24,395 nucleotides of DNA from a bacterium (GTDB lineage: Bacteria > SM23-81 > DAOVCL01): positions 1-24,395 of the forward strand of contig JAOZPP010000043.1 in the NCBI GenBank assembly GCA_029932675.1. Direction: 5' to 3'. A program made the translations under genes and the position numbers. Numbering within the stretch: position 1 is the stretch's first letter; the number at the start of each line of letters is the position of its first letter. Positions 10,533 to 24,281 of the stretch are shown here, in pieces. Below the pieces are notes generated by a model, which was given only the letters and a program-made list of their open reading frames with translations, had not been told where the DNA came from and ran no database searches.

Positions 10533-11432
10533 CTACTTTATGCTCATCTTCTTCAAACCCTGGGGGAGCTCAAACTGGGAGTCCTGAATGGAGGTGGACT
10601 TAACCTCGGTAACCTCCATATGAATGGTAAAGATGGGTTTGTTTCCGGTCTTCATCGCCTCCATCATACCCTTCATCCCAGCAGGCATCTCCTCCTTCCC
10701 CTCTTCCTCGGCGAAGCTCCCCTTCATCTTCATGGAAGCATCCATAAGGATGGGAAACCCACCTATTTCATTCATCTTATTAGTAAACTCCTCCATCTGG
10801 TCCTTCTGTGTTCCAGAGAAGAATTTCTCTATGAAGCTTGTGGAGGAACCACCCGTCTTCTCCGAAAGCCTCTTCTGAAAGTCATTGAGCTCCTTTAAAT
10901 TCTTGTCCCCCTTGGCAACCCAGAGATCACCGGACATCGAGTATGAGATCTTCTTCCCCCTCTCATCATCTATTGCCTCCCCCTCCATAGTCATTATCAC
11001 CTTCTGGCATTTGAACCCATTTATTAGTTTGCTCTCCTTCGTCTGCTGCACCTCAAACTTGGGCGGGTTGAGTTTAGCCTGCCCTTTCCTCCCCTTCACT
11101 TGGGATTGAGGAGCGAACATCTCCTTTAGGGGCATCTCCGTATAGGTCTTCGTATCCGGGGAGATGGTCCAGACAACACCCTTGTCCAGTCTGATGATGG
11201 TGATCTCACCCGTCCCTGGCACTTGAATCATATTTCGCGACGGAGAACTCATCTCCGTCCTCTGCTTATCGCCTTTGATAAAGGTGGTGGTCTGGAACTC
11301 CATCTGCATCATCCCTCCCATCATCTCCATCTTCATCTTCTGCTTGTAAACCACATCACCCCACAGGGAGTTCACCCCAAACATAAGGCCCCAAATAATG
11401 GCCAAAACGGGAACTAAACCTCTACCTTTCAT
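10533..11432 (-). CDS. Secreted DUF4412-type protein, Met/Lys-rich
   Basis: A 299-aa protein with a signal peptide (residues 1-25, cleavage near SLWG). The mature part starts with VVYKQKMKMEMMGGMMQMEF and TTFIKGDKQRTEM, then a strand carrying VVWTISPDTKTYTEMPL. This arrangement matches the DUF4412 family of exported beta-rich proteins: a tested quantity in the envelope, a strand pair reading K-G-D-K-x-R, and an I/W-x-I-x-P-D-x-K-x-Y. The C-terminal half repeats a Met/Lys-rich pattern around residues 225-260 and ends in LPQGLKKMSIK. The biochemical function of the family is unknown. The start is the ATG at 11432, with GGGAGG five bases upstream. It is 55 bp past the end of the ankyrin reading frame and is probably the last gene of the operon that begins with the FG-GAP protein. 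Confidence 0.82.
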   Translation of the reverse strand: MKGRGLVPVLAIIWGLMFGVNSLWGDVVYKQKMKMEMMGGMMQMEFQTTTFIKGDKQRTEMSSPSRNMIQVPGTGEITIIRLDKGVVWTISPDTKTYTEMPLKEMFAPQSQVKGRKGQAKLNPPKFEVQQTKESKLINGFKCQKVIMTMEGEAIDDERGKKISYSMSGDLWVAKGDKNLKELNDFQKRLSEKTGGSSTSFIEKFFSGTQKDQMEEFTNKMNEIGGFPILMDASMKMKGSFAEEEGKEEMPAGMKGMMEAMKTGNKPIFTIHMEVTEVKSTSIQDSQFELPQGLKKMSIK

Positions 11433-11487: not shown

Positions 11488-11598
11488 TCACTCTACCTTA
11501 GATTTGAGGAACTTCACAACTTCCGCGTGTCCTCCCTTCTCCGCCAGCTTGAGCGGAGTATCACCCTCCTTGTTCCGGGCATTCACCCCAACCCTTTT
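11488..11598 (-). pseudogene. Out-of-frame tail of the ankyrin-repeat gene
   Basis: Reading one base out of step from the ankyrin frame gives GVGVNARNKEGDTPLKLAEK, continuing as GGHAEVVKFLKSKVE to a TGA at 11490-11488. This is a complete ankyrin repeat matching the consensus (G-x-x-V-N-A-R-x-x-x-G-x-T-P-L-x-x-A-x-x-x-G-H-x-E-V-V-K-x-L). It is the natural end of the upstream protein, lost in the sequence as written because of a missing base in the AAAAAGGG run near 11593-11600. Restoring one base gives a 199-aa protein ending at 11488. Confidence 0.75.
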
Positions 11599-12086
11599 TC
11601 CACCAGGAGCTTAACTACCTTCAAGTTACCCTCCCTGGCGGCATACATCAGGGGAGCGAATCCTCCTTCGATCTGCGGGTCCACCTCCGCATCCTGGGAA
11701 ATCACCAGATTGAGCATCTCCAATATATCCCCCTCTTTAGCCTGACCCAGCAGGGTAACCAAGGGCCAAAGCACTGTGGTGCCATCCTTTGCCTTAGCCC
11801 TTACATCAGCGCCAGCCTTGAGGAGAAGGGGGATCAGTTCCCTGAATGCCTCCCGGTTGTTAGCAGCGGCGATAAGAGCTGTCCCACCTCTAATGTTCTT
11901 TATCTTGAGGTTGGCACCTTTGGAGAGCAAGAACCTAACAAAGTCAGCATCATCATTGATACAGGTCATAAGAAGGGGCGTATTGCCGGCCCTGTCCTGG
12001 GCGTTGATCTCCACCCCCTTGGCCAACATCTCCTTAGCCACTTGGAAGGCACCTAAGTAGATAGCTGAGTTCAACTGAGAGATCAT
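11583..12086 (-). CDS. Ankyrin-repeat protein, frameshifted near its 3' end
   Basis: As written, this is a 167-aa frame with about four ankyrin repeats: QLNSAIYLGAFQVAKEMLAK, then VEINAQDRAGNTPLL..., ANLKIKNIRGGTALIAAANN, ADVRAKAKDGTTVLWPLVTL and AEVDPQIEGGFAPLMYAARE. The frame ends prematurely in LLVEKGLG, mid-repeat; the missing final repeat continues in the next frame. There is no signal peptide, unlike the genes around it. The ATG at 12086 has AAAGGAG 12 bases upstream, a rather long spacing. The preceding gene stops 27 bases upstream in the same reading frame, so the two could once have been one secreted ankyrin protein. Ankyrin repeats bind proteins. The partner is unknown. Confidence 0.8.
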   Translation of the reverse strand: MISQLNSAIYLGAFQVAKEMLAKGVEINAQDRAGNTPLLMTCINDDADFVRFLLSKGANLKIKNIRGGTALIAAANNREAFRELIPLLLKAGADVRAKAKDGTTVLWPLVTLLGQAKEGDILEMLNLVISQDAEVDPQIEGGFAPLMYAAREGNLKVVKLLVEKGLG

Positions 12087-12113: not shown

Positions 12114-12521
12114 CTACGGAATATCAAAGCGTGGCTGCACGACCCGCGCCCTGATTTTACCTGATAGGTTGGAGATGTCTATGTAATTTATTCCCTCTGC
12201 TGCTGGAAATCTCCAAGATTTGGACTCTCCAGCCTCAATCACATATTCCACCTCCTTGAATATGCCCTTGGCAGAACCCTCCCCATGATATAAGGCAAAC
12301 TTCCCCTTGGAGAGGGAACCATTCTGGGACTCACCGACAATTTCGACCTCCAACCTCTTCTTGGGATCCACCATTATCCCTCTTCCAAAATTCCCCTCCA
12401 ATTCGTACTTCCCCACCTTTAAATCAGGAGGTTCCTTTTTGGCCTTTTGGTCTGCTGCTCCTGACAAGCCCCGGAGGAGAAAGATGGTCACCACCATAAT
12501 TAACATCCCCTTTAGTTTCAT
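12114..12521 (-). CDS. Small secreted protein of unknown function
   Basis: A 135-aa protein with a signal peptide (MKLKGMLIMVVTIFLLRG..., cleaved near SGAA, about residue 22), a Lys-rich linker, then a compact beta-rich domain with a recurring strand pattern (VGKYELEGNFGRG, RLEVEIVGES, KFALYHGEG, EVEYVIEAGES, INYIDISNLSGKI). It ends in RFDIP. No known family is recognised. The ATG at 12521 is chosen over a GTG six bases earlier, because the GTG is buried in the ribosome-binding site (AAAGGGG, five bases before the ATG). It sits 38 bp past the PorV-like gene in the same operon. The next gene begins 27 bp later in the same frame, so this could be the N-terminal half of a former longer protein. 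Confidence 0.75.
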   Translation of the reverse strand: MKLKGMLIMVVTIFLLRGLSGAADQKAKKEPPDLKVGKYELEGNFGRGIMVDPKKRLEVEIVGESQNGSLSKGKFALYHGEGSAKGIFKEVEYVIEAGESKSWRFPAAEGINYIDISNLSGKIRARVVQPRFDIP

Positions 12522-12559
12522 TTGCACCCCTTTGCTTTAAATTCTCCAAGATACAGCCA

Positions 12560-13438
12560 TCAAAAACTGAACTCTAAGGATATCCGGTGAGAGGGATCAA
12601 GATCCCTATAGGGCACAAAGGCATAGCTAAAAGCAAATTTCTTCCAAAGGAGCCCCCATCCCAGGGAGAAGGAATGGGCCGTATTATAGCCGGCCCTCAA
12701 GGCCAATGTCTTCAATATCACATATTCTCCACCCAATCCGAATATGAGATCGCTATCTATTGTCTTCTCTACCTCAGAGCCAAAGGAGAAGTCAGCTTTC
12801 TGATAGGCCCCTGCTATCCCCAGACTCAGAGGGAGGGGGTCTCCTTCCTTGATAAACTTGATCTTAGGTCCTATATTCCGGAGGGTAAGTGCTAAGTTTA
12901 ACCCAGGAAATCGGGTGGGCCCATACAGAAGACCCAAGTCAAAGGCAAATGAGGACGCTGACTCGTTTTCTATCTTCTCCAGGATATACTTACCAGTGAC
13001 CCCATAGGATAGGGCCCTCCCCATCTCATTGGCATAAGCCAGGCCAAAAGCTGCGTCATAGGCGGAATATTTACCCACTTTAAGAAAATCCTCCACCTTC
13101 GGAATATCACCCGATGAGGAATAATAGAGGCTAATTCCAAAATGGCCAAGGCTGTTAGAGAAGACACCAGCCAGGTATTGGTGGCTCATATCAAGGAACC
13201 AGAAGTTCTGAGAGAGGATTAACTCCCTTGACCCAATTTGGCTAAGTCCTGCTGGATTCCAGTAGATCGCCGAGGGGTCATCGGCGATGGCCCCATAGGC
13301 TTCCCCCATTGCACAAGCCCTGGCCCCCAAACCTATGCCGAGAAACTGTGCACCTGTTGTCCCCTCCCCGTGAGAAACCCCTGCTGCAATCACCAGAATT
13401 GATAAGACAAATAAAACCCATAAAAAGTGCTTTTTCAT
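12560..13438 (-). CDS. PorV/UPF0164-family outer-membrane protein
   Basis: A 292-aa protein with a signal peptide (cleavage near SHGEG, about residue 24), then the diagnostic opening GTTGAQFLGIGLGARACAMG followed by EAYGAIADDPSAIYWNPAGL. This is the hallmark of the PorV/PorQ-like (UPF0164) family of outer-membrane beta-barrels. The rest is alternating strand and turn, ending in RISLEFSF with the terminal Phe usual for barrels. In type IX secretion PorV shuttles cargo carrying a C-terminal signal domain to the cell-surface attachment complex. Here it lies 4 bp after a gene whose product ends in just such a domain, so a matching export role is plausible. Other T9SS parts are not in the window. 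The start is the ATG at 13438; its ribosome-binding site AAGGTG lies in the last codons of the preceding gene. Confidence 0.88.
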   Translation of the reverse strand: MKKHFLWVLFVLSILVIAAGVSHGEGTTGAQFLGIGLGARACAMGEAYGAIADDPSAIYWNPAGLSQIGSRELILSQNFWFLDMSHQYLAGVFSNSLGHFGISLYYSSSGDIPKVEDFLKVGKYSAYDAAFGLAYANEMGRALSYGVTGKYILEKIENESASSFAFDLGLLYGPTRFPGLNLALTLRNIGPKIKFIKEGDPLPLSLGIAGAYQKADFSFGSEVEKTIDSDLIFGLGGEYVILKTLALRAGYNTAHSFSLGWGLLWKKFAFSYAFVPYRDLDPSHRISLEFSF

Positions 13439-13442
13439 CTTG

Positions 13443-16400
13443 TCACCTTATTATGGCAAATTTCCCTTTATCCTTACCGGCGGGGCCAGAGAGAACCCAG
13501 ATATACACCCCACTCGCCAGCTTCTTGCCGTTATCATTGGTCACATCCCACTCCAGAGTTGACTTCCCCTTGATCTCCCTTAGGGTGCGCACCAATCTGC
13601 CTGCTTTGTTATATATCCTGATCGTTGAATGGGGCAGGCTCCCCCCGAAGAAGGTAATGACGGTATGACCCCGTGCCGGGACAAAGGGGTTGGGGTTTAC
13701 CCCAATTTCCTCCTTGGCCTTGATGGTAGTCACGGCATCAGGTGCGTTAGGTCTTCCCTCAACGAACCCAACATTGTCGATTGCCCTGCTGTAAAAACGG
13801 TAGGTGTGGCCATTATGGCCGATGAAGATGGCACTCGTCCCCTCTGTCTGTTGCCAAAGGCTGTAATCTCCTCCGTTGTCGGAAACATAGACATCGTATC
13901 TGTAGATACCCGACTCGCTATCGTGGCCGCTCCAGGAGACCTTAAAGCTGACATAGTCGACTGTGGATGGAAGGGGGTTTACGCTGCTTGTCGGAGGCCG
14001 ATTGTCGATCAGGTTCAGCACCTGGTGGGTTAATATGGGCTCGTTCGCCCCCAGGCTGTCCCGGAAGATGATGGAGGCACGGTTGGTGATTTCGGTGCCG
14101 GAGGCTAAGCCGCTGTCGGGCCAAATAGTATAGGTAAACCAGCTCTGTCCCTCAGGTGGGTTCACATTTGGCGGAAGGTTGATCCCATTAAAGGTAAAGG
14201 TTACTATTCCATTGAGGGTATCAAGCTCCATCTGGGTCAACTGGTGTTTTGAGGCTCCAAACCGCAGAGTTGACCAGTTAAGGTCTGGGTCAAGGGTATC
14301 GATGACTACCACATCCGGGACCGGCGCGGTAGCGGTATCTACATTCTCAAAGTATATGGTGTATTGATATGGGCGATTGTCGGTGATATACCCTTTCTCA
14401 CTAAAACCTGTAGGCCCCGCCTTATCATTTGGATCCCAATAAAATCCCAGGGCAACGGCTAGTTCAGCCTTCGTTAGCCCTAAAAGCTGCCCAGCCAAGT
14501 CTGCACCTTTTATCACGGTGGATGCTAAGTCATAGGCCTGAATGAAGGGGATGGTCTCAGGAAACAGAATCTGCACGCCGAGCTTTACCAGGGACCAAAA
14601 TGTCCCTTCCACGAAGTCACTCAGTGCTTTCTCCCCGGCACCTTCAAAATCCTGCAGGGTGAGGCCATCGTGTTTCTCATAAGCTTGATAGAGGTTCTTC
14701 CCAAAGCAGAGGGCAGAATTGAGGAGAGAACCCTTTACGCTAAACCCAGGATTCTCCCCTAATTCAGCGGTCCTTTTACCCATCTTCTGAGGATATTCTT
14801 CCCACACCGTCTGGACGTTGCATTCATATATTCTCATTTTTCCAGGGGGGATTACACTGATATAGATAGGAACCATCACATTCTTAATATCGTAAGCTTC
14901 CAACGAATCACCCCAAGCTATCGTGTCCTTCGTGGCCGCACTGACGACGGAGGTTATCTTCAGATAGTCAGGGACATCTACCTCCAATATTACCCTGTCG
15001 AGGTTAACATTCCCTGAATTCCCAGCATAAATGTAGTAAGTCAACGGTATATCTTCACCAAATTTTATGGTCACATTGCTTAACCCACAGATATCCAACC
15101 AGAGGTGCTGGTCACCTTCCTCCACTTCAAAGGCATTGAAAAAGGTATCTGCGCTCCCTCCGGGGTTAGCTACCAGCAAATCCCAATTGCCTCTGGTCAC
15201 ACCAGTAAGGTTGAAAACGGCTTGGATCTCCGTGGATGAAATTACTTTGCTCCATTCGGTTTGATAACCACTGGCAACAATATCTGGCTCCCCCGCGCGC
15301 ACAAGCTTCACTTCGGCACTATCAGCAAAGTTAAAGCCTGTAATCGCTGTGGTAACCCACCCCGTATTACCTCCGGACCGTGGCCAGATGGAAGCTATAA
15401 ACGGTTGATTGCCTGAGGTGTCCCTGACGGTCACTGAGCTTGTTAACAGATTATTTGACGGGTTCTGATCAACGGAGGAGATTGCTTGGCAACTGACTTG
15501 GTAATTACCTGTCTTTAGAGGAACCCAAGGAGGGAAGCTAACGGTATCCCACTGCCCTGAGGAAAGGGTTGCCGTTATCGTATCTTCATAAACGGAACCA
15601 ACTCGAAAACGAACCTGAAAGGTCTCTGAACCTGTGCCTAAATTTACTACTTCAGCCTCGGGCACAACGGCTACATTGGGAGGGATTATGCCGACAGGGG
15701 ATAAGATGGATGTAACCCCCACATCGTGGGTCAACCCCTTTGTTCCGAAAAGGAGAGCCACCTGGTTCGAATCTGGGTGGATTATGGCCAGGTCAGATGC
15801 CCCATCGCGATTAAAGTCTCCTGAACAGAAGGAATTGTAGCAGGCCATAGAGTATATCGGGATGGGATTAGCTATGTAACTGTACCCCGCAGATTCAAAG
15901 TTTCCCTTCCCATCCCCTGGAAAGAGGAAAATCGTGGTTCCGCCCATAGCTATGTCAATATTGGCATCACCATTGAAATCGCTTAGCGCATAACCGAGAT
16001 TTTGGGAACTTTGAGCATTCACTTCTGTGTAATAGGTCATCCCCCCTTCACCATCTCCCAGCCAGATTTCCCCTACCAACCAGCTTAACACGAAAATGTC
16101 CTCATTCCCGTCGTTATTGAAGTCTGCCACCTCAATTTTATCCCAGACGACACCACCGGGATTCTCCGTGTCGTAATTCCGTCTTTGACCGAATTCACCA
16201 TTGCCCTTGCCGAAGAGAATAGAAAATCTGGTGACCTCCCGGGTGATCAGGTCGAGATGTCCATCGCCATTGATATCAGCGGAGGCAATAGCAGTTAAGC
16301 CAAAGGAAAAATCGATTTGAGTGAAATTGGGAAAGGAGCCAGAGCCATCTCCAAAAAGCATAAAGAGCTTATTCCCGTTTATACTCGCGGCAACATCCTC

Positions 16401-17972
16401 ATAACCGTCTTCGTTATAATCGCCAAGGGCAAGATCATAGGGATTGCCATAAAGAGGATAGGGGGATTGGGCGGTAAAACCTCCAGCTCCCTCCCCAAAA
16501 AGGGTGATAAGAGCTGTATTTAGGGTATCGGAAACGATTAGGTCAATATTTCCATCGCCATTTAAATCGACGGCCCTGAGGATAAAAGGTATCCCCCCTA
16601 TGCCGATCTCACTGGATTCACCGGCGAAGTTTCCCTTCCCGTCATTGAAGAGAATGGTTATACTCCTGCCCTCAGTATTTGCTGTTGCTATGTCCTGATA
16701 ATGATCCCCATTGAAATCGGCTGATACAATTGAATTCGGTCTCAGACCTACTCCATATCGGGGAGCCGTCTGAAAAGTTGTATCCCCATTGCCAAAGAAG
16801 ATATCAAGCCCATCGGCTTCCCATAAACCCTGCCTCTGGAACAAAATATCCTGATGCCCATCACCATTCAGATCGGTAGCCGAAAAGTCATCCAGCTTAT
16901 CAGCGTACGGATATACCAGAACTGGATACCATTGAGGTGCCTTAAAATCACCACCTCCCTTCCCCAGCATAAGTCCAAACCGGTTCAGGAAGAAGTATGA
17001 GCGGGGGAGAAAGGCTAAGTCCAAAAGACCATCCTCGTTAAGATCTACTGGATATAAAGCTCCAACCCCAACACCTGCCCCAAATTCAACTGGTGGATTA
17101 AAGAAACCATTACCTTTTCCTTTCAAAAACCTAATTGCTAACGCGGGATCATACTCGCTGGAGGCAGAGACAATATCCAGATGACCATCTCCATCAAGAT
17201 CGGCAACATCGATGTCGGAATAGAGGGATATAAACGGAGCAGAGACTATCCCCACCGGATATGTGCCCGCTTGGGAAAAGCCACCAGCTCCATCGTTCAG
17301 AAGGACGACGATGCTATCGCTGGGATCGCTATAAAGGGGACGATACTTGGGTAGGATTAGATCTATAGAGCCATCCTCGTTGAAATCCCCGAGAACAGCA
17401 TACCCTTCAAAAAAACCACCAATAGAGAAGAAACCCCCTCGATAGAAGTATCCGTTGCCGCGTCCGATGAGAATCGCCGTGATCAGAGTATCCCCACAGA
17501 TTATATCCGCATAGCCATCATCGTCCAAATAGTTAACTCCCCCTAATCGTTGTGGCGGGATAATACCCAGATCACTTACATCTATAGAAATTGGATCAGA
17601 AAAAGCGCCGTTACCATAACCTAACAGAATGTATAAATATCCATTTGGGTCATTGACCACGAGATCAGCATTACCGTCATTGTTGAAATCTCCCGCCTCT
17701 ATGGACGAACCCTCCACCCCCTGGACTCTATTGGTGGAATACCAGCCGGAAGGTTGCATCAGATAGATGGAGAGGTTTTCTGAGTTGGGATCATTGCTCA
17801 AAACGGCGATGTCCGCAACTCCATCCCCATTAAAGTCGGCCATCGTATAGGAATGAATACCGGGCGCTGGTATCTCTACTACGGTTGGAGAAAAGAGAGG
17901 CTGGGAATGACTTGTGGAAATCAGCAAAATGCTAAGTGGAACGAAAAGAAATAGAATGAATCTACGAATCAT
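13443..17972 (-). CDS. Giant exported FG-GAP protein with sorting-type C-terminus
   Basis: A 1509-aa exported protein. After a signal peptide (cleavage near SHSQ, residue 24) come 14 calcium-binding-type D-x-[ND]-x-D-x-x-x-D repeats (for example DFNGDGVADIAV, DLDGDGHLDIVS, DINGDGHLDLIT) between about residues 45 and 735. This is the signature of FG-GAP/VCBS blades and fits two seven-bladed propellers. Next are a CARDB-like unit (about 750-850), an IPT/TIG-like unit (about 855-955), a DUF11-like unit, a hydrophobic helical stretch (about 1080-1185), a domain starting DPNDKAGPTGF, a fibronectin-like unit, and a C-terminal domain from NPNPFVPARGHTVI to SGVYIWVLSG...GKFAIIR. That last domain is of the FlgD-Ig/type IX sorting kind. 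The ATG at 17972 is preferred to a GTG at 17984, as GTGAGG lies six bases before it. It heads the sigma-54 operon and is followed within 4 bp by a PorV-like gene. A surface adhesin or binding role is inferred. Confidence 0.9.
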   Translation of the reverse strand: MIRRFILFLFVPLSILLISTSHSQPLFSPTVVEIPAPGIHSYTMADFNGDGVADIAVLSNDPNSENLSIYLMQPSGWYSTNRVQGVEGSSIEAGDFNNDGNADLVVNDPNGYLYILLGYGNGAFSDPISIDVSDLGIIPPQRLGGVNYLDDDGYADIICGDTLITAILIGRGNGYFYRGGFFSIGGFFEGYAVLGDFNEDGSIDLILPKYRPLYSDPSDSIVVLLNDGAGGFSQAGTYPVGIVSAPFISLYSDIDVADLDGDGHLDIVSASSEYDPALAIRFLKGKGNGFFNPPVEFGAGVGVGALYPVDLNEDGLLDLAFLPRSYFFLNRFGLMLGKGGGDFKAPQWYPVLVYPYADKLDDFSATDLNGDGHQDILFQRQGLWEADGLDIFFGNGDTTFQTAPRYGVGLRPNSIVSADFNGDHYQDIATANTEGRSITILFNDGKGNFAGESSEIGIGGIPFILRAVDLNGDGNIDLIVSDTLNTALITLFGEGAGGFTAQSPYPLYGNPYDLALGDYNEDGYEDVAASINGNKLFMLFGDGSGSFPNFTQIDFSFGLTAIASADINGDGHLDLITREVTRFSILFGKGNGEFGQRRNYDTENPGGVVWDKIEVADFNNDGNEDIFVLSWLVGEIWLGDGEGGMTYYTEVNAQSSQNLGYALSDFNGDANIDIAMGGTTIFLFPGDGKGNFESAGYSYIANPIPIYSMACYNSFCSGDFNRDGASDLAIIHPDSNQVALLFGTKGLTHDVGVTSILSPVGIIPPNVAVVPEAEVVNLGTGSETFQVRFRVGSVYEDTITATLSSGQWDTVSFPPWVPLKTGNYQVSCQAISSVDQNPSNNLLTSSVTVRDTSGNQPFIASIWPRSGGNTGWVTTAITGFNFADSAEVKLVRAGEPDIVASGYQTEWSKVISSTEIQAVFNLTGVTRGNWDLLVANPGGSADTFFNAFEVEEGDQHLWLDICGLSNVTIKFGEDIPLTYYIYAGNSGNVNLDRVILEVDVPDYLKITSVVSAATKDTIAWGDSLEAYDIKNVMVPIYISVIPPGKMRIYECNVQTVWEEYPQKMGKRTAELGENPGFSVKGSLLNSALCFGKNLYQAYEKHDGLTLQDFEGAGEKALSDFVEGTFWSLVKLGVQILFPETIPFIQAYDLASTVIKGADLAGQLLGLTKAELAVALGFYWDPNDKAGPTGFSEKGYITDNRPYQYTIYFENVDTATAPVPDVVVIDTLDPDLNWSTLRFGASKHQLTQMELDTLNGIVTFTFNGINLPPNVNPPEGQSWFTYTIWPDSGLASGTEITNRASIIFRDSLGANEPILTHQVLNLIDNRPPTSSVNPLPSTVDYVSFKVSWSGHDSESGIYRYDVYVSDNGGDYSLWQQTEGTSAIFIGHNGHTYRFYSRAIDNVGFVEGRPNAPDAVTTIKAKEEIGVNPNPFVPARGHTVITFFGGSLPHSTIRIYNKAGRLVRTLREIKGKSTLEWDVTNDNGKKLASGVYIWVLSGPAGKDKGKFAIIR

Positions 17973-17995
17973 AGTTGACCTCACAGCAGGGGTTC

Positions 17996-18022
17996 AACTC
18001 CAAACTTAATAAGTTCTGAGTT
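17996..18022 (-). other. Predicted 5'-leader hairpin of the sigma-54 transcript
   Basis: The first bases of the predicted transcript form AACTC-AG-AACTT [ATT] AAGTT-TG-GAGTT, a 12-position stem with one mismatch and one G-T wobble. It begins about three bases after the predicted +1 (near 18025). A 5'-terminal stem can protect mRNA from 5'-end-dependent decay; the same DNA is also a good operator-like dyad. Confidence 0.45.
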
Positions 18023-18035
18023 CAACCTATCCCTT

Positions 18036-18051
18036 AGCAACTGCTGTGCCA
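18036..18051 (-). promoter_or_regulatory. Consensus sigma-54 (-24/-12) promoter
   Basis: On the minus strand the sequence is TGGCACAGCAGTTGCT, matching the sigma-54 consensus TGGCAC-N5-TTGC[AT] at every fixed base. It is preceded by C, as in the extended consensus. The -24 GG and -12 GC are correctly spaced. Transcription should start near 18025, about 53 bases before the ATG of the FG-GAP gene at 17972. The gene for a sigma-54 activator lies just upstream on the same strand, ending at 18560, so this is very likely its target. Confidence 0.9.
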
Positions 18052-18085
18052 GAAAAACTTCATACCGGGAGAGAAAGGGGTAAAT

Positions 18086-18100
18086 CATTGATATACAAAG
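18086..18100. promoter_or_regulatory. Candidate activator site, dyad 1
   Basis: CATTGATATACAAAG is an imperfect dyad around TTG-N5-CAA, centred near -68 relative to the predicted start. It matches dyad 3 (18195-18209) at 11 of 15 positions, including TTGA and CAAAG. Repeated dyads upstream of a sigma-54 promoter are the expected form of an enhancer site. The assignment is inference. Confidence 0.35.
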
Positions 18101-18149
18101 CGAAAATTCTTTGGGCTTCTTCTATGGATAAGGAGGTAAAGGTCAGAAG

Positions 18150-18168
18150 TGTTATTTTGGTTATAACA
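18150..18168. promoter_or_regulatory. Candidate activator site, dyad 2
   Basis: TGTTAT-N7-ATAACA is a perfect 6-bp inverted repeat, centred near -134 from the predicted sigma-54 start. It does not share the TTG-N5-CAA core of the other two dyads, so it may be for a different factor or be chance in an AT-rich stretch. Confidence 0.3.
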
Positions 18169-18194
18169 GATTTTTGCTTGGGAAGGGATAAATT

Positions 18195-18209
18195 CTTTGA
18201 AAATCAAAG
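18195..18209. promoter_or_regulatory. Candidate activator site, dyad 3
   Basis: CTTTGA-AAA-TCAAAG is a perfect 6-bp inverted repeat with a 3-bp spacer, centred near -177 from the predicted start. It resembles dyad 1 in size and core (TTG-N5-CAA). Confidence 0.35.
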
Positions 18210-18404
18210 GATAGATGTGTTAAGAGAAAGGTAACAAACTATCGGTGAGAAGTAACTAAAACAGTTTGCGGGGGCCAGTTTCCAGAGATCGGGGATCAGG
18301 GGAGACAAGAACGAGGTGACAGAACCCCGATTCTGCCCCCTTCCTCTTTTGATTCTCTCTCCCTTGCTCTTTGTGGATGTTATCATCCATAGAAGAAACT
18401 TTCG

Positions 18405-18425
18405 CCGTCAGGGCAGAACCCTGAC
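18405..18425. repeat. CCGTCAG-family hairpin, copy 3
   Basis: The perfect stem is GTCAGGG (18407-18413) with CCCTGAC (18419-18425) around CAGAA. On the left the family words CCGTCAG are intact; on the right the closing GG has become AA. It is the most degraded of the three related hairpins. Confidence 0.5.
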
Positions 18426-18440
18426 AACACAGGAGATTCC

Positions 18441-18554
18441 GAAATTCAGTGAAATCCGTGTAATCGGAGGCTATTTTTTGCCCATGAGGTTCCGTGGTAA
18501 ACTTTGCGTTCTTTGTGACTTTGTGGCGCTGTGTTGCTCCGCGGTGATCAGTGG
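18441..18554. repeat. Dispersed-repeat-like low-information text
   Basis: Consecutive phrases such as TTCAGTGAAATCCGTGTAATC, AACTTTGCGTTCTTTGTGAC and GCGGTGATCAGTGG look like degraded, widely dispersed intergenic repeats. They have the same flavour as CTGCGTTTATCCGCGTCC at 10471-10488. I recognise the wording from intergenic regions of several bacterial groups; copy number here is unknown. Confidence 0.4.
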
Positions 18555-18559
18555 AAAAC

Positions 18560-20140
18560 CTAACGGAAGTCCTTGGGTGAGATTTTGTGCTTGGAGAGCA
18601 TCTGGTGGAGAAGGCTACGGTTAATCTTAGCTTTGCTTGCTGCTTCACTTACCTTGCCGTGCGTACTCATCATAAGATGAATCAGGAAGTCCTTTTCCAC
18701 CCTTTGGATCGCCTCCGTGCGTGCCTGCTCTTTGGCTTTCTTCAGCTCCGCATTGGTCTGAGGAACTTTTCCCTCCAGTCTTCTTTTCACTATCTCCTGA
18801 GGAAGATCTCCCAGGCCTATTCTCTTGGCCTTAGAGAGGATAATCGCCCTCCTGATGATATTCTCCAATTCCCTTACATTCCCCGGATAATCCCAGGAGA
18901 GAAGTGCCTCTTCGGCTAGGGGTTCAAAGCCTACCACATCCTTCTTCAATTCCACCATAAATTTCCCTAAGAAGTGATTGATCAAGAGGGGCAAGTCATC
19001 CTTCCTCTCCCGCAAGGGAGGAAGGGTAAGGTTAATTACATTAACTCGATAGTATAGGTCCTCCCTGATGATACCCCTTTTAAGCATTTGAGAAAGGTCA
19101 CGGTTGGTCGCACAGATAACCCTCACATCTACCCTTCTGAGCCTATTGCTTCCCACTCTTTGGATTTCCCCAGATTGGAGCACGCGAAGAAGTTTCACCT
19201 GGAGTTTAGGGCTCATCTCACTGATCTCATCGAGAAATATGGTTCCCCGATCAGCGGCTTCAAATCTGCCCACCCTACTTGTGGTAGCGCCGGTAAAGGC
19301 ACCCTTTTCACAGCCGAAAAGCTCAACTTCCAATAGGGTCTCTGGTATGGCCCCGCAGTGAACCGGCATAAAGGGCCCCTGGGAACGATTGCTAATCCGA
19401 TGGATGGCCCTAGCTAGGAGCTCTTTGCCCGTTCCGGTCTCCCCCTGAATGACTACTGGAGCATCAGTAGGGGCAACCTGCTGGGCCTCCTCTAAAACCT
19501 CCAATAGCTTGGGGTTGGCACCTATTATATTGGCAAATTTATCCTCTACCTCCCTCTTTAGGTAGACATATTCCCTCTTCAGCCTCTCCCCATTAAGGGA
19601 GAGCCTAATGGCCTGAGCTGCCCCCTTAGCCAAACCCTCCGCCAGACGCAGCTCCTTGGGGGAAAAGAGGGAGGAACGGGTAGGATTGTCTATGTAGATG
19701 ACCCCAAAAACCTTCCCTTCTCCGAGGAGCGGAACACAGATAACCGATTTCAATTGCAGACTGACAACCGACTCGCTATTCCCAAACCTTTTATCTTGGG
19801 ATGCATCTTGGGAGAGAATCGACTCACCTGATTTTACCACCCGATTAATTATCTTCTCACTGATCTCAAACTCAGGTTTCTCTATATCCTCCTTCCTAAC
19901 ATTTCTGGCCACTTTGAAGTCTAAGTTCCCCTCGTCATCAACCAAGACGAGAAACCCCCGCTGGCCCCCGCTGAGCAGCAAGAATCTGTCCATCACCAGC
20001 TCTAAGAGGTCATCTATGGAGATAAGGTCGGAAAAGACTTGGGAGACTGCGCTCAAGAAATAGTCACCCCCACCCTCCCCCACATTCATCTCCCCCAATG
20101 ATGAACCGATCTTCTCTATTAATTCCCTTTTCTTAACCAT
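18560..20140 (-). CDS. Sigma-54 enhancer-binding protein with GAF sensor
   Basis: A 526-aa transcription activator. A GAF domain spans about residues 30-180 (SVICVPLLGEGKVFGVIYID). A full sigma-54 AAA+ domain spans about 205-430, with Walker A GETGTGKE (233-240), the GAFTGA loop (280-285) that contacts sigma-54, Walker B IFLDE (301-305) and REDLYYRVN with the arginine finger region. A Fis-type helix-turn-helix spans about 483-520 (VSEAASKAKINRSLLHQMLSKH). There is no response-regulator receiver domain, so it is not a classic two-component partner; control is presumably via the GAF domain and/or the kinase gene 39 bp upstream. The ATG at 20140 has GAGGA six bases before it. The next gene on the strand is preceded by a consensus sigma-54 promoter, the natural target. 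Confidence 0.95.
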   Translation of the reverse strand: MVKKRELIEKIGSSLGEMNVGEGGGDYFLSAVSQVFSDLISIDDLLELVMDRFLLLSGGQRGFLVLVDDEGNLDFKVARNVRKEDIEKPEFEISEKIINRVVKSGESILSQDASQDKRFGNSESVVSLQLKSVICVPLLGEGKVFGVIYIDNPTRSSLFSPKELRLAEGLAKGAAQAIRLSLNGERLKREYVYLKREVEDKFANIIGANPKLLEVLEEAQQVAPTDAPVVIQGETGTGKELLARAIHRISNRSQGPFMPVHCGAIPETLLEVELFGCEKGAFTGATTSRVGRFEAADRGTIFLDEISEMSPKLQVKLLRVLQSGEIQRVGSNRLRRVDVRVICATNRDLSQMLKRGIIREDLYYRVNVINLTLPPLRERKDDLPLLINHFLGKFMVELKKDVVGFEPLAEEALLSWDYPGNVRELENIIRRAIILSKAKRIGLGDLPQEIVKRRLEGKVPQTNAELKKAKEQARTEAIQRVEKDFLIHLMMSTHGKVSEAASKAKINRSLLHQMLSKHKISPKDFR

Positions 20141-20179
20141 AAGCGTTCCTCGTCCTGGCCAAGGTCAAATCCCTCAAAT

Positions 20180-23100
20180 TTAGCATGCCCTTCTAAGCAA
20201 CTCGACATCCTGAGCAAAGCTAACAACCTCCTGCTTCCTCTGAAAAGCCCTTCTCAGCCTCTCCTCCTCTATCTCCAAGATAAGGCTCCGTAAGATCTGA
20301 AAACATTCCTCATATTCCCTCTTTGCCTGATCAAACCTCCCCTGATAGTAGGAGGCCCGTCCTATCTGGTAATGGGCCATCCAGAGAACCCCATTCATCC
20401 CAGATGACTTAGCCATTTTCTCAGCAGCCATTGCCCACTTAAGGGCTTCCTTCAACCTCCCGCCCTCTATCTCTATGCGAGCCAATTGAATTAAGGCCCT
20501 CGCCCCCTCGTATCTCCTCTTCAGGGACTGAGCTGTTTTCCATACATGGCTTGAAGATCTAAACGCCCTCTTCAGATCTCCCCTCTCCATCTCCAACTGG
20601 GATTCCAACAGTAGCGAAGTGAGAACAAATTCCATATACCCAATCTTCCGGGATATAGCCAGGGCGCCCAAAACAGCTCTTTCCGCCTGAGAATGATCCC
20701 TTACCCGGAGGGAGTAGGCGGCAAAGCCAATTAAAACCCTTGCCCTGAGAACCTTGCTCTCCAGCTTGTCGGCTATCTTCCTCACCTGGCCCAAGAGTTT
20801 CCCCGCCCCTTTAGTATCCCCAAGAGCTATATCTACTTCTGCCAAGTTAGTCATAACCCAAGCTATCCCCCGGGGGTGATTTATCCCCTGATATATCATC
20901 AAGGCCCCCAACAAGCTCCGCCTAGCCTTCTCATATATTCCCCTTTGGGAGAGGATGGTCCCTCGGTTGAGGAGCACCAAGGCTTCTCCCCTTCTATCTC
21001 CTACCTCTATTAGAACCTCTCTGGCTTTCTCATTAAGCTCTCCCGCCTCGTTGAGCCTCCCCAAAGCTACATATACCCGCGAGATGTTATTTAAGCTAAT
21101 ACCCTCCATCCATCTGTCCTTAACCTCCTTTGCCCACCTCAATGCGGCCCGATAATGCTTTAGGGCTAAAGGAAAAGAGGAACGATAGAAGTGGATATTG
21201 CCCACACCTAAACAGCTATACGCCACACCTCCTCTGTCTCCTCTCTTCCAAGAAATTCTCCTCCCTTGGCGAAAGCAGTTAATCGCCTGGGTATAATCCC
21301 CCTCTTGGGTGAAGAGATAACCAAGGTTAAAGAGCACATCTTCCTCCCTCTTCTCATCCCCCAAGATAGCACTCAGCCAAAGTGCCCTTTTATAACCTCT
21401 GATTGCCCTCTGATAAAAACCAAGGCTCTCATTGACTCGGGAGAGGTTATTCATTGCCTCTATCTCTATATCCTTGCTTTTTAAGGCTTTTGCCACCTGG
21501 AGAGCACTTTTCATATGTGACCGGGCCTCCACATACCTCCCCAGACAATAATAGACAAGCCCCAGGCCATTTTCTCCTCTCCCTTGCCAGACCCTATTCC
21601 CCCTATCCCGGGAAACCTTTAAGATGCTCTGAAATGCTTCCCTAGCCTTCTCATACTCCCCCAAATAAAAGAAGGTTTCCCCCTTCCGCTGGTAAAGTCG
21701 CCAGGGCATCTTCTTGTATTCCTCCTCTATGATCTTTATGGCCTCGGCGTAGCAACTAATGGCTCTCGGGTAATCCACTAATCGGCGAGAATACTCCTTG
21801 GCTGCCTTTAAAAACCAGAGAAGGGATTGACCTCTTAGTTTTCCTTTGAGCAGATGATAAGCTATAGGGAAGTAGAATCCCCTGGCTTCTCCCTTCACCT
21901 GGCGGAGATAACTCCCTAATCTTCGGTGCAGTTCGACTCTTACCCCCTCATCCACATCCTCATAAACTATCCTATGGAGCATTCGGTTGCTAAATCTAAA
22001 TCTGTTAGGGTGAACATCCACTCTCTGGATGAATCGAGCTCTCAACAACTCCCCTAATATAGGTTCTATATCCCCAAACCCACTGAGCTGATGTAAGACC
22101 TCCCAGTCAAAGTGATAACCTATTACAGAGGCAACTCCGATAAGTCGCCTCTCCTGGGTACCCAACAGATTGAGTCGCCTCCTCAAAACCTTCCTTATCC
22201 CAGTGGGCAAAGGAAGAAGCGCCAACTTCCCCTCCTTTATCCTCCACTCTCCCTGACTCCTATAGATTAAGCCCTCGTCGGCCAAAAGGCCCAAGAGCTC
22301 CTCTACAAAAAGTGGATTACCCCCGGTCTGCTCCTCGATCAGCTTGGCCAGGGGGTCAGCCCCGGACGTGCCCAGAATAGAGGCTACAAGGGAGTTTATC
22401 TCCTCACCGTTTAGCGGACCCAATTTTATCTCCTCTAAGAGTCCCTTTTCCTTCAGCTTCTTCCTTATTGAGGGGAACTTACCCTCTGGCTCAACCCCCT
22501 CCCCCTCCCAGGTTCCAATCACCATAGCAGAGGGATTGTTGAGGGCCATAGTCTCCCAAAATTCCATCCAGACCTCATCTGCCATCCCTAAATCATCAAA
22601 GAAGAGGATAAGTGGCCGATCCTGGGCCATTTCGGCCAATTTAACCGTTAAATCCCTAAATAGAGACGAGATCTTTGGCCCAAAGAGATGAGGTGCAAAA
22701 CGCTTTGTTGGTAGCATTCCAGATGATTCAAGGGTTAAGGGGGATTCGCTTAAGGCCAAATTGAACCCCCCTCCCTCTTTAATTATATCAACAGGGAAGA
22801 AGGGAACCCCCTTCACCTGGAGTAGAAACTTAAACTCCTCTAAGAACCTTGATTTTCCTATTCCCTCCTCCCCCCATATAAGAAAGGCCCTTGGCCTTGG
22901 GGGAGGGAAAGAGAGCCGATTAGAGTGAACCCGCTCGAAACCAAGGAATAGATGATCTAATTCCTTTTTCCTACCGATAAATTGTCCACGTGGAAGTCTA
23001 AATCTATACTTGAGATATTTAGGGTAACTTATTGTAATTTTGGAAAATAAATTTTCTATTACCTCTAAAGGGGATTGAAACCTCTCTGATGGTTCCTTCT

Positions 23101-23812
23101 CCAAAAGCTTGAGGATAACCCTGTTAATTGGAGCGGGGATCTCCGGGTTAAGGCTGGACGGTGAAACCACCTCCTCGTGTAGATGGGCCTCTATAAGCTT
23201 GGCTACATCTGAATAGGGAAATGGTTTCCTCCCTGTCCAGAGCTCATAGAGAACCACCCCCAAGGAATAGAGATCAGATCGCCCATCCCCTCTCCCTCCT
23301 TTCAAGACCTCTGGAGCTATATAGCCCGGGGTCCCCCTTATCCCCACACCAGAAGGAAAGCCAATAAACTGAGCCAAGCCCAAGTCTATGATTTTCACCC
23401 CCTCCACTTTGTCTATTAGGATATGCCCCGGTTTGAGGTCAGAGTGGACATAGCCCCGTGAATGGATGAATTCCAGGGTCTCACAGATTTGAAGGAGTAG
23501 TTGAAGAAAATGCTCATATTCCCATTTTTTAAAGGAAATAAGGATGTCTTTTCCCTCTACCAATTCCATCACTAAGAAATCTCTTCCATCACTGGTCTTG
23601 CCCATTTGATAAATCTGCGGAAGGTGAGGGTGATTTAACCTAAAGAGGGCAGAGAACTCCTCAAGTGGAGCTAAAGAAATCCCCTTTTGAGGGGTAAAGA
23701 CCTTAATGGCCACCTTCCTCTTGCTCCTTAAGTCGTAAGCCTCATACACCCTCCCCATACCCCCTCTCCCTATCTCCGTTAATAACCTATATCCTCCTAT
23801 GCTTTGCCTCAT
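20180..23812 (-). CDS. Ser/Thr kinase-ATPase-TPR signalling protein
   Basis: A 1210-aa cytoplasmic signalling protein. Residues 8-260 form a Hanks-type kinase: Gly loop GRGGMG (15-20), VAIK lysine (37), catalytic HSDLKPGHIL (123-132), metal-binding DLG (143-145) and IAPE. The catalytic loop reads HSD rather than HRD, making it a non-RD kinase that may not need activation-loop phosphorylation. An AAA/STAND-type ATPase follows (about 278-640), with Walker A GEEGIGKSR (314-322), Walker B LILFFDDLG (401-409) and TGGNPLFVEELL. The rest (about 680-1210) is a TPR array of about a dozen repeats. This order resembles PknK-type and myxobacterial kinase-ATPase-TPR regulators. The ATG at 23812 is preferred to a TTG at 23830, since AGAGGAGG immediately precedes it. 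It is co-transcribed with the sigma-54 activator gene 39 bp downstream, suggesting that it controls it. Confidence 0.93.
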   Translation of the reverse strand: MRQSIGGYRLLTEIGRGGMGRVYEAYDLRSKRKVAIKVFTPQKGISLAPLEEFSALFRLNHPHLPQIYQMGKTSDGRDFLVMELVEGKDILISFKKWEYEHFLQLLLQICETLEFIHSRGYVHSDLKPGHILIDKVEGVKIIDLGLAQFIGFPSGVGIRGTPGYIAPEVLKGGRGDGRSDLYSLGVVLYELWTGRKPFPYSDVAKLIEAHLHEEVVSPSSLNPEIPAPINRVILKLLEKEPSERFQSPLEVIENLFSKITISYPKYLKYRFRLPRGQFIGRKKELDHLFLGFERVHSNRLSFPPPRPRAFLIWGEEGIGKSRFLEEFKFLLQVKGVPFFPVDIIKEGGGFNLALSESPLTLESSGMLPTKRFAPHLFGPKISSLFRDLTVKLAEMAQDRPLILFFDDLGMADEVWMEFWETMALNNPSAMVIGTWEGEGVEPEGKFPSIRKKLKEKGLLEEIKLGPLNGEEINSLVASILGTSGADPLAKLIEEQTGGNPLFVEELLGLLADEGLIYRSQGEWRIKEGKLALLPLPTGIRKVLRRRLNLLGTQERRLIGVASVIGYHFDWEVLHQLSGFGDIEPILGELLRARFIQRVDVHPNRFRFSNRMLHRIVYEDVDEGVRVELHRRLGSYLRQVKGEARGFYFPIAYHLLKGKLRGQSLLWFLKAAKEYSRRLVDYPRAISCYAEAIKIIEEEYKKMPWRLYQRKGETFFYLGEYEKAREAFQSILKVSRDRGNRVWQGRGENGLGLVYYCLGRYVEARSHMKSALQVAKALKSKDIEIEAMNNLSRVNESLGFYQRAIRGYKRALWLSAILGDEKREEDVLFNLGYLFTQEGDYTQAINCFRQGRRISWKRGDRGGVAYSCLGVGNIHFYRSSFPLALKHYRAALRWAKEVKDRWMEGISLNNISRVYVALGRLNEAGELNEKAREVLIEVGDRRGEALVLLNRGTILSQRGIYEKARRSLLGALMIYQGINHPRGIAWVMTNLAEVDIALGDTKGAGKLLGQVRKIADKLESKVLRARVLIGFAAYSLRVRDHSQAERAVLGALAISRKIGYMEFVLTSLLLESQLEMERGDLKRAFRSSSHVWKTAQSLKRRYEGARALIQLARIEIEGGRLKEALKWAMAAEKMAKSSGMNGVLWMAHYQIGRASYYQGRFDQAKREYEECFQILRSLILEIEEERLRRAFQRKQEVVSFAQDVELLRRAC

Positions 23813-23905
23813 TTCCTCCTCTAAAGGCAAGGGGTGAGGAATGTCCTGATCTCCGCACCCCTAAAGATGGTTTTACTCCTCAGGTTTGAATCTTTTACAA
23901 AGGAT

Positions 23906-24272
23906 CACTACTGTCCGATTGTTTGCTCTTGACTTTGTTGTAACTGCATTGACGAAAGTGAGTTGCGAGCTAAAATAACTGTTATCGATTTCAAATCCTT
24001 TGTATACTATGGTTATTCCACTTTCTACGGTGCATCCGAAAATGCCGTGAAGACACCAATATGGATTGCCATCTCAGTGTTTGTCCTCGTCGCCATTGTT
24101 AAGAAACGGGCTCATCTGGACCTCAGTCTCTACACAATTCTACAGAGTCTGAGCGTCACCGTTTTCGAAAAATCGCCTATCTTACAGGTGCTTACGGATT
24201 TCGCTCGCAAAGAGCTGAAGGGCGAATGCTGTAAGCAATTGTCATTATTCAACTAATAACCGGACAGTAGTG
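23906..24272 (+). mobile_element. Internally deleted IS4-like insertion sequence
   Basis: A 367-bp element bounded by 12-bp perfect terminal inverted repeats, CACTACTGTCCG at 23906-23917 and CGGACAGTAGTG at 24261-24272, with partial matching further inwards (ATT and GTT). It is flanked by a perfect 9-bp direct repeat, ACAAAGGAT, at 23897-23905 and 24273-24281, a target site duplication. Only the 3' end of the transposase remains, so the element cannot transpose itself but could be moved by a full copy. It lies 94 bp upstream of the kinase gene, facing away from it, in what should be that gene's promoter region. Confidence 0.9.
23963..24256 (+). pseudogene. Transposase C-terminal remnant (IS4 family)
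   Basis: The frame encodes FYGASENAVKTPIWIAISVF, then VLVAIVKKRAHLDLSLYTIL, LQSLSVTVFEK, and ends NCKQLSLFN-type (as CCKQLSLFN). This is the characteristic C-terminus of IS4-family transposases with an N-terminal DUF4372 domain. The preceding residues (VIDFKSFVYYGYST) do not resemble that family, so the deletion joint is probably near 24015. The full-length protein would be about 370-400 aa, so three quarters are missing. The open frame begins at a TTG without a plausible ribosome-binding site. The stop codon lies four bases before the right inverted repeat, the usual layout. Confidence 0.85.
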
Positions 24273-24281
24273 ACAAAGGAT

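Follow-up and report, generated by a model that had tools for sequence, protein, structure and literature searches.

Enhancer-binding proteins (EBPs) of the NifA, NorR and FhlA class serve divergent or downstream target operons, and activator genes are classically found beside sigma-54 promoters of their own. Here we describe a locus that extends this arrangement, in a bacterium without close cultured relatives. It lies on contig JAOZPP010000043.1, one of 116 contigs of a 3.03 Mb draft genome, analysed over its whole length of 24,395 nucleotides and referred to below as the window. Like members of the NifA class, the locus combines an activator of GAF, AAA+ (GAFTGA) and apparent helix-turn-helix (HTH) type with tandem dyads and a -24/-12 promoter near the activator gene. 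Unlike them, the activator is paired with a protein that joins a Ser/Thr kinase, an ATPase and tetratricopeptide repeats (TPRs), and its likely target is not metabolism but a predicted surface protein of type IX secretion system (T9SS) type. We suggest, with a probability of about 0.68, that this locus works as a self-contained sigma-54 switch dedicated to a single surface protein.

The comparison extends to systems that link regulation with the cell surface. In Porphyromonas gingivalis, the two-component system PorXY and the extracytoplasmic function sigma factor SigP control the genes of the T9SS apparatus (PMC4800418, PMC8265659). The window locus shares with PorXY-SigP a dedicated transcriptional control tied to type IX secretion, whereas in the window sigma-54 and an EBP stand before one cargo operon, not before apparatus genes. 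T9SS surface cargo can have its own outer-membrane partner, as in SprB-SprF, where the partner is PorP-like (PMC9143113); in the window the cargo gene is likewise trailed directly by the gene of an outer-membrane partner, which belongs to the PorV/PorQ family instead of PorP/SprF. Another proposal is that sigma-54 controls the exterior of bacteria, made in a survey that lists exopolysaccharide, lipopolysaccharide, flagella, lipoproteins and wall precursors (PMC3162934). The locus agrees with that proposal in tying sigma-54 genes to envelope and exterior functions, and it differs from the survey in that T9SS cargo is absent from the list. In the open-access literature searched we found no paper joining sigma-54 activators with the T9SS, nor the wider link among sigma-54, Ser/Thr kinases and the T9SS that the modules described below make; a 2025 survey of sigma-54 regulons leaves type IX secretion unmentioned. 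An initial annotation of this DNA had taken the locus, if its reading is right, for a system not known to be described. This holds for the link to the T9SS but not for the EBP encoded in cis with its own sigma-54 promoter, which is classical.

The regulatory pair is encoded on the reverse strand, as are the hairpin, dyads, promoter and operon genes described below. The first gene (20180-23812) encodes the kinase; in the open reading frame (ORF) 20180-23830, with a natural ATG start at 23812, Pfam reports Pkinase (1.2e-42), AAA_16 and many TPRs. The EBP gene (18560-20140) starts 39 bp past the kinase gene. Its product contains GAF_2 (1e-17), Sigma54_activat (4.6e-70) and AAA_lid, with no receiver domain in the Pfam search, and both the Walker A motif GETGTGKE and the GAFTGA loop are intact. 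The nearest NCBIfam model is NifA (9e-119, below cut-off). By eye the C-terminus resembles a Fis-type HTH; Pfam HTH_8 is not reported at E <= 0.01 for this protein, and is reported for the C35 fusion and the TPR-EBPs introduced below. The initial annotation had recognized this pair, a kinase-ATPase-TPR protein encoded together with a receiver-less sigma-54 activator, and the domain searches bear it out. Together, the two proteins align end to end with one 1738-aa fusion protein encoded on another contig (C35), in which the kinase part covers residues 1-1215 and the junction falls at residue 1215. Kinase-EBP fusions or adjacent pairs also recur in unrelated genomes; among 386 genomes, about 20 encode such fusions, 1400-1900 aa long. 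Because of the C35 fusion and these recurrences, a functional link of the kinase with the EBP is likely.

A perfect -24/-12 sigma-54 promoter, TGGCAC-AGCAG-TTGCT (TGGCACAGCAGTTGCT), is located 508 bp past the EBP stop codon at 18051-18036. The strict pattern TGGCAC-N5-TTGCW occurs once in the window, where 0.02 are expected. Genome-wide, in statistics based on pattern searches and extracted stretches of the genome, it occurs 14 times, compared with 0 for the reversed pattern. Counting the C of TTGC at 18037 as -12 places the predicted transcription start at 18025, the position that had been proposed from the first reading of the sequence. This start is 53 nt upstream of the ATG at 17972 of the giant cargo gene, which is preceded at 5 nt by a Shine-Dalgarno sequence, TGAGGT (17983-17978). 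The arrangement is common in the genome: of the 14 perfect sites, six have a same-strand EBP gene less than 600 bp upstream, as do 14 of the 40 sites matching TGGCAYN5TTGC. For the larger set 0.1 would be expected (binomial P ~1e-26, a guide only, as the null is idealised with sites evenly spread). The genome also encodes RpoN (Sigma54_DBD, 1.3e-58), on which the initial annotation had made its proposal depend. Judged from the sequence, sigma-54 control in cis has good support. A terminator-like hairpin of 12 pairs (18403-18429), the longest stem found in a scan whose overall yield does not exceed chance, probably ends the kinase-EBP transcript ahead of the promoter. The stem-loop that would begin the 5' leader at the predicted start (17991-18025) is weak and not significant (z = -1.0).

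Between the hairpin and the promoter are two copies of a dyad, TGTTA-N9-TAACA, at 18218-18236 and 18150-18168. They are spaced 68 bp apart and centred at about -202 and -134 from the predicted start. The whole genome contains three copies of this dyad, two of them here, and the tandem pair (18150-18236) is likely an enhancer (upstream activating sequence). The C35 paralogue carries a different dyad, TGTAAA-N6-TTTACA, whose only two copies in the genome are located just upstream of its own -24/-12 site (one mismatch); any dyad pair of this type arose in 11 of 20000 shuffles. Both kinase-activator modules thus hold near-private tandem dyads at the place where an activator in cis would be expected to bind. 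The near-private dyads, a promoter beyond chance and the frequency of EBP-adjacent sites all argue that the activator acts at the window promoter, as first proposed; the binding itself is a prediction.

The gene behind this promoter (13443-17972) encodes a giant protein whose N-terminus, MIRRFILFLFVPLSILLIS, reads as a Sec signal peptide (signal peptides and export, here and for the small ORFs below, were judged by eye). It contains 14 FG-GAP calcium-loop motifs, corresponding to two seven-bladed propellers, followed by DUF7619 and a T9SS-type C-terminal domain. The C-terminus matches FlgD_ig, CHU_C and Por_Secre_tail just under their curated cut-offs. It scores 2e-10 against a C-terminal domain profile of other cargo proteins, built mostly from this genome and a congener (G001) with the window sequence left out. 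The next gene (12560-13438) starts 4 bp past the giant and encodes an outer-membrane protein of the PorV/PorQ family (NF033709, 179 bits with a cut-off of 90; PorV, 9.9e-06). The pairing of a two-propeller exported giant carrying a sorting-type C-terminus with a PorV-like protein agrees with what had been read from the letters. SprA, the sole apparatus component searched, is above cut-off in this genome, in the congener and in two further comparison genomes (G002 and G003).

The initial annotation had the window locus alone; we place it among a dozen-odd repeats of such a module in this genome, for which we found no description. The genome contains thirteen genes for TPR-GAF-EBPs of 910-1030 aa, each directly preceded by a small ORF of 104-122 aa. 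These sister modules have no kinase, and the TPRs are joined directly to the GAF-EBP. The small ORFs, all 13 of which adjoin a TPR-EBP, are hydrophobic at the N-terminus and carry the motif ML(M/C)AA(E/W)PW, or a remnant of it in the most divergent copies; examples are L074:10792-11148, L067:4934-5302, L069:4975-5331 and L065:3305-3631. The family (fuller motif ANTGxERxMLMAAEPW) has 13 members in this genome and 5 in the congener, and among 193 genomes it is restricted to this genus. It has no Pfam or NCBIfam match, and no member turned up in a search for named relatives.

In 10 of 11 sister modules with enough downstream sequence, a -24/-12 site with two mismatches or fewer is found 179-467 bp past the EBP stop; decayed sites occur in C104 and, at the contig end, in C7. 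Many have a terminator-like hairpin just ahead of the site. Exported T9SS-tailed proteins usually follow, among them beta-propellers, a beta-helix protein and an M4 peptidase, and several cargo genes are cut off since contigs often stop just past the promoter. Within 6 kb, T9SS-tailed cargo is present at six of seven assessable TPR-EBP loci versus none of eight loci of response-regulator or other EBPs (Fisher P 0.0014). The module layout is conserved in the congener. There, one -24/-12 site is followed by an orthologue of the propeller protein of contig C109 (L107), a second by a T9SS-tailed, gingipain-like C25 peptidase (L108) and a third by no cargo on the same strand (L110). One pair of modules across the two genomes, C30/G1_110, is 53% identical overall and keeps TCGTCATT-N2-TGGCGA together with the -24/-12 box.

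Systems of the RRNPP type are recognized by a receptor of 250-500 aa and a propeptide of up to 100 aa (PMC10075063). The 13 sister modules resemble them in having the gene of a small, putatively exported protein beside a TPR-containing regulator. They differ in that the candidate receptor, at 910-1030 aa, is a GAF-sigma-54 EBP outside the 250-500 aa range, in that the candidate propeptide, at 104-122 aa, is over the 100-aa criterion, and in their setting in a genome with outer-membrane and T9SS genes; signalling by these modules is a prediction.

If the window locus is the switch that we suggest, the kinase-AAA-TPR protein and the GAF-EBP would be made from one transcript, probably stopping at the hairpin. 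The kinase/TPR part and the GAF domain of the EBP would register a signal. The EBP would then assemble on the tandem dyads and, through its GAFTGA loop, open the sigma-54 RNA polymerase poised at 18036-18051. Transcription from about 18025 would yield the two-propeller FG-GAP protein and its PorV-family partner, the former crossing the inner membrane through Sec and reaching the surface by way of the T9SS. The locus belongs to a set of modules in this genome that are laid out alike, with a sensor-EBP, a presumed terminator and private enhancer, a -24/-12 site and an exported T9SS cargo.

Several observations weigh against this interpretation. The dyad was picked after viewing the sequence, and shuffling the region yields some repeated 5-bp dyad in 2.9% of cases; a 31-bp direct repeat around the dyads is not significant. 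The C-terminus of the giant falls just short of the curated cut-offs (TIGR04183, 21.8 bits versus 23; FlgD_ig, 26.6 versus 27). Neither the C35 fusion paralogue nor C30 has T9SS cargo within 6 kb, and an HNH endonuclease is present at C30. In a phmmer test, none of the 80 best named relatives of the EBP, mostly from Deltaproteobacteria, has a kinase-domain neighbour. We found no orthologue of the EBP in 60 genomes or in G001-G003, and none of the giant in 41 genomes; no relative thus offers a comparison for the window promoter or for the exact kinase-EBP-promoter-FG-GAP-PorV order. Apart from these points, no NCBIfam equivalog is above cut-off for the kinase, EBP or giant, and we rejected the idea that they are ordinary orthologues of a described system.

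A further point against the proposal concerns the kinase itself, and leads to the alternative that survives best. The catalytic-loop Asn is replaced by His (HSDLKPGHI), so that the HxDLKPxN pattern is broken, whereas the Asn is kept in the fusions of C35, G002, G003 and G105 (a third comparison genome) and in several paired kinases. Because of this His, the window kinase may be weak or a pseudokinase. The EBP might then control the promoter in cis while its AAA-TPR partner serves as a scaffold or senses a ligand, gating it by contact without phosphotransfer. The 13 sister modules, which do without a kinase, fit such an arrangement. On the other hand, the window kinase keeps the VAIK lysine that binds ATP, the catalytic Asp (HxD) and the DLG Asp, and unusual catalytic loops are tolerated by other bacterial Ser/Thr kinases. 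We regard gating by contact as a serious contender, if not the one we would choose. That the kinase governs the activator, as the initial annotation proposed, is favoured by the gene pairing and the fusion in the paralogue but not by the altered loop, and control by the kinase is plausible but less well supported than cis control by sigma-54.

The promoter could also be real but activated by another EBP, with the local pair regulating something else. The genome encodes about 25 EBPs, and sigma-54 promoters by themselves are not EBP-specific. However, the dyads hardly occur outside this stretch between the genes, many sigma-54 sites in the genome adjoin an EBP gene, and the HTH ends vary from module to module, the exceptions being pairs that also have similar intergenic regions (C9a/C46, C30/G1_110 and C109/G1_108). 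Such co-variation is expected if each EBP reads its own enhancer, though common descent alone could also give the pattern. On balance we consider activation by another EBP improbable. Least credible by far is that the -24/-12 match arose by chance and that the giant operon is run by read-through from the kinase-EBP genes or by a housekeeping promoter, such as the weak sigma-70-like match overlapping the start (17997-17968, 9/12, a kind found at chance level), since the match exceeds expectation in the window, the reversed control and the uniform null for EBP-adjacent sites, lies at a fitting distance from the start codon and the Shine-Dalgarno sequence, and is set off from the EBP gene by the hairpin.

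Known control of the T9SS acts on the apparatus (PorXY, SigP); under the self-contained switch that we favour, single cargo operons seem to own all-or-none sigma-54 switches. The parts are known; their combination and its recurrence seem new, as does the presence of small exported proteins next to TPR activators. A dozen or so sister switches, most of them before a different exported protein, suggest that the bacterium chooses its surface proteins with dedicated switches, and their repetition with differing HTHs, enhancers and cargo makes this a testable model for surface protein choice. A bolder form of the model is tentative and less likely than not to hold: the genus would choose its surface coat through about 15 insulated sigma-54 switches, in which each EBP responds to no enhancer but its own and switches on a single T9SS cargo (a propeller or beta-helix protein, or a C25 or M4 peptidase). 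A Ser/Thr kinase, as in the window, would gate one or two of these switches, and in thirteen the gate would be a small secreted protein that TPRs sense, in the manner of RRNPP systems but via sigma-54.

Kinase-activator fusions in other genomes share the domain order of the C35 protein and of the window pair. The window differs in having two genes and a changed catalytic Asn, and the fusions of G002, G003 and G105 differ in lacking GAFTGA. In these kinase-TPR-GAF-EBP fusions (L136, L137 and L264, respectively) the AAA+ loop reads IATGV or TATGV; with GAFTGA gone, these proteins may have ceased to act together with sigma-54. Downstream of fusions in other genomes, few or no -24/-12 sites are found where the sequence is readable, so promoter adjacency appears not to be general to the fusion family. 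At L264, in the unrelated genome G105, a perfect -24/-12 site (8466-8481) stands between the fusion and an FG-GAP/CBM96 protein, in an order like that of the window; we did not count it as exact conservation, as its EBP has lost GAFTGA (GTATGV). T9SS-tailed genes are near several fusions or pairs (L103, L264, L265, L266, L271 and L274), a lead only, as these are raw occurrences, uncorrected for a background rate in those genomes.

The initial annotation bounded the locus at 17972-23812, which includes the regulatory pair and promoter but ends at the start of the giant; the operon continues to 12560 and perhaps to 10533. Possible further members are a 137-aa exported protein from the ORF list with no family match (12114-12527, after a 32 bp gap), an ankyrin-repeat protein (11583-12086, 27 bp gap; Ank_2, 7.5e-22) and, possibly last, an exported protein with Pfam DUF4412 (10533-11432, 150 bp gap). 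Just upstream of the kinase gene, at 23905-24275, the inverted repeats CACTACTGTCCG and CGGACAGTAGTG flank a 97-aa ORF that resembles the end of an insertion sequence transposase and has no Pfam match; the region looks like a mobile-element relic.

About 100 nt past the -24/-12 site, nine module loci (L066, L067, L068, L069, L070, L073, L074, L107 and L108) share a conserved leader (CTCCGCTTGTCCGTGGCTTGGGCGGGCAGGGGAAGCCGGTGCTGCC...) where the predicted sigma-54 transcripts begin, which had no Rfam match in the eight loci searched. A related form is present in L072 and L110; because a hairpin follows it at once, it may represent a small RNA that depends on sigma-54. Between the promoter and the cargo, C18, C46, C108, C111, C109, C104, G1_107 and G1_108 contain a second small ORF of about 50-60 aa, charged and mostly ending in DW. 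Palindromes resembling repetitive extragenic palindromic elements, of type GGTGGCAGAACCCCGATTCTGCCACC, are frequent around the modules (leaders L057, L059, L071 and L073; window 18300-18430). The sole Rfam match in the eight loci is a selenocysteine tRNA at L067:5462-5552 (tRNA-Sec, 77.5 bits).

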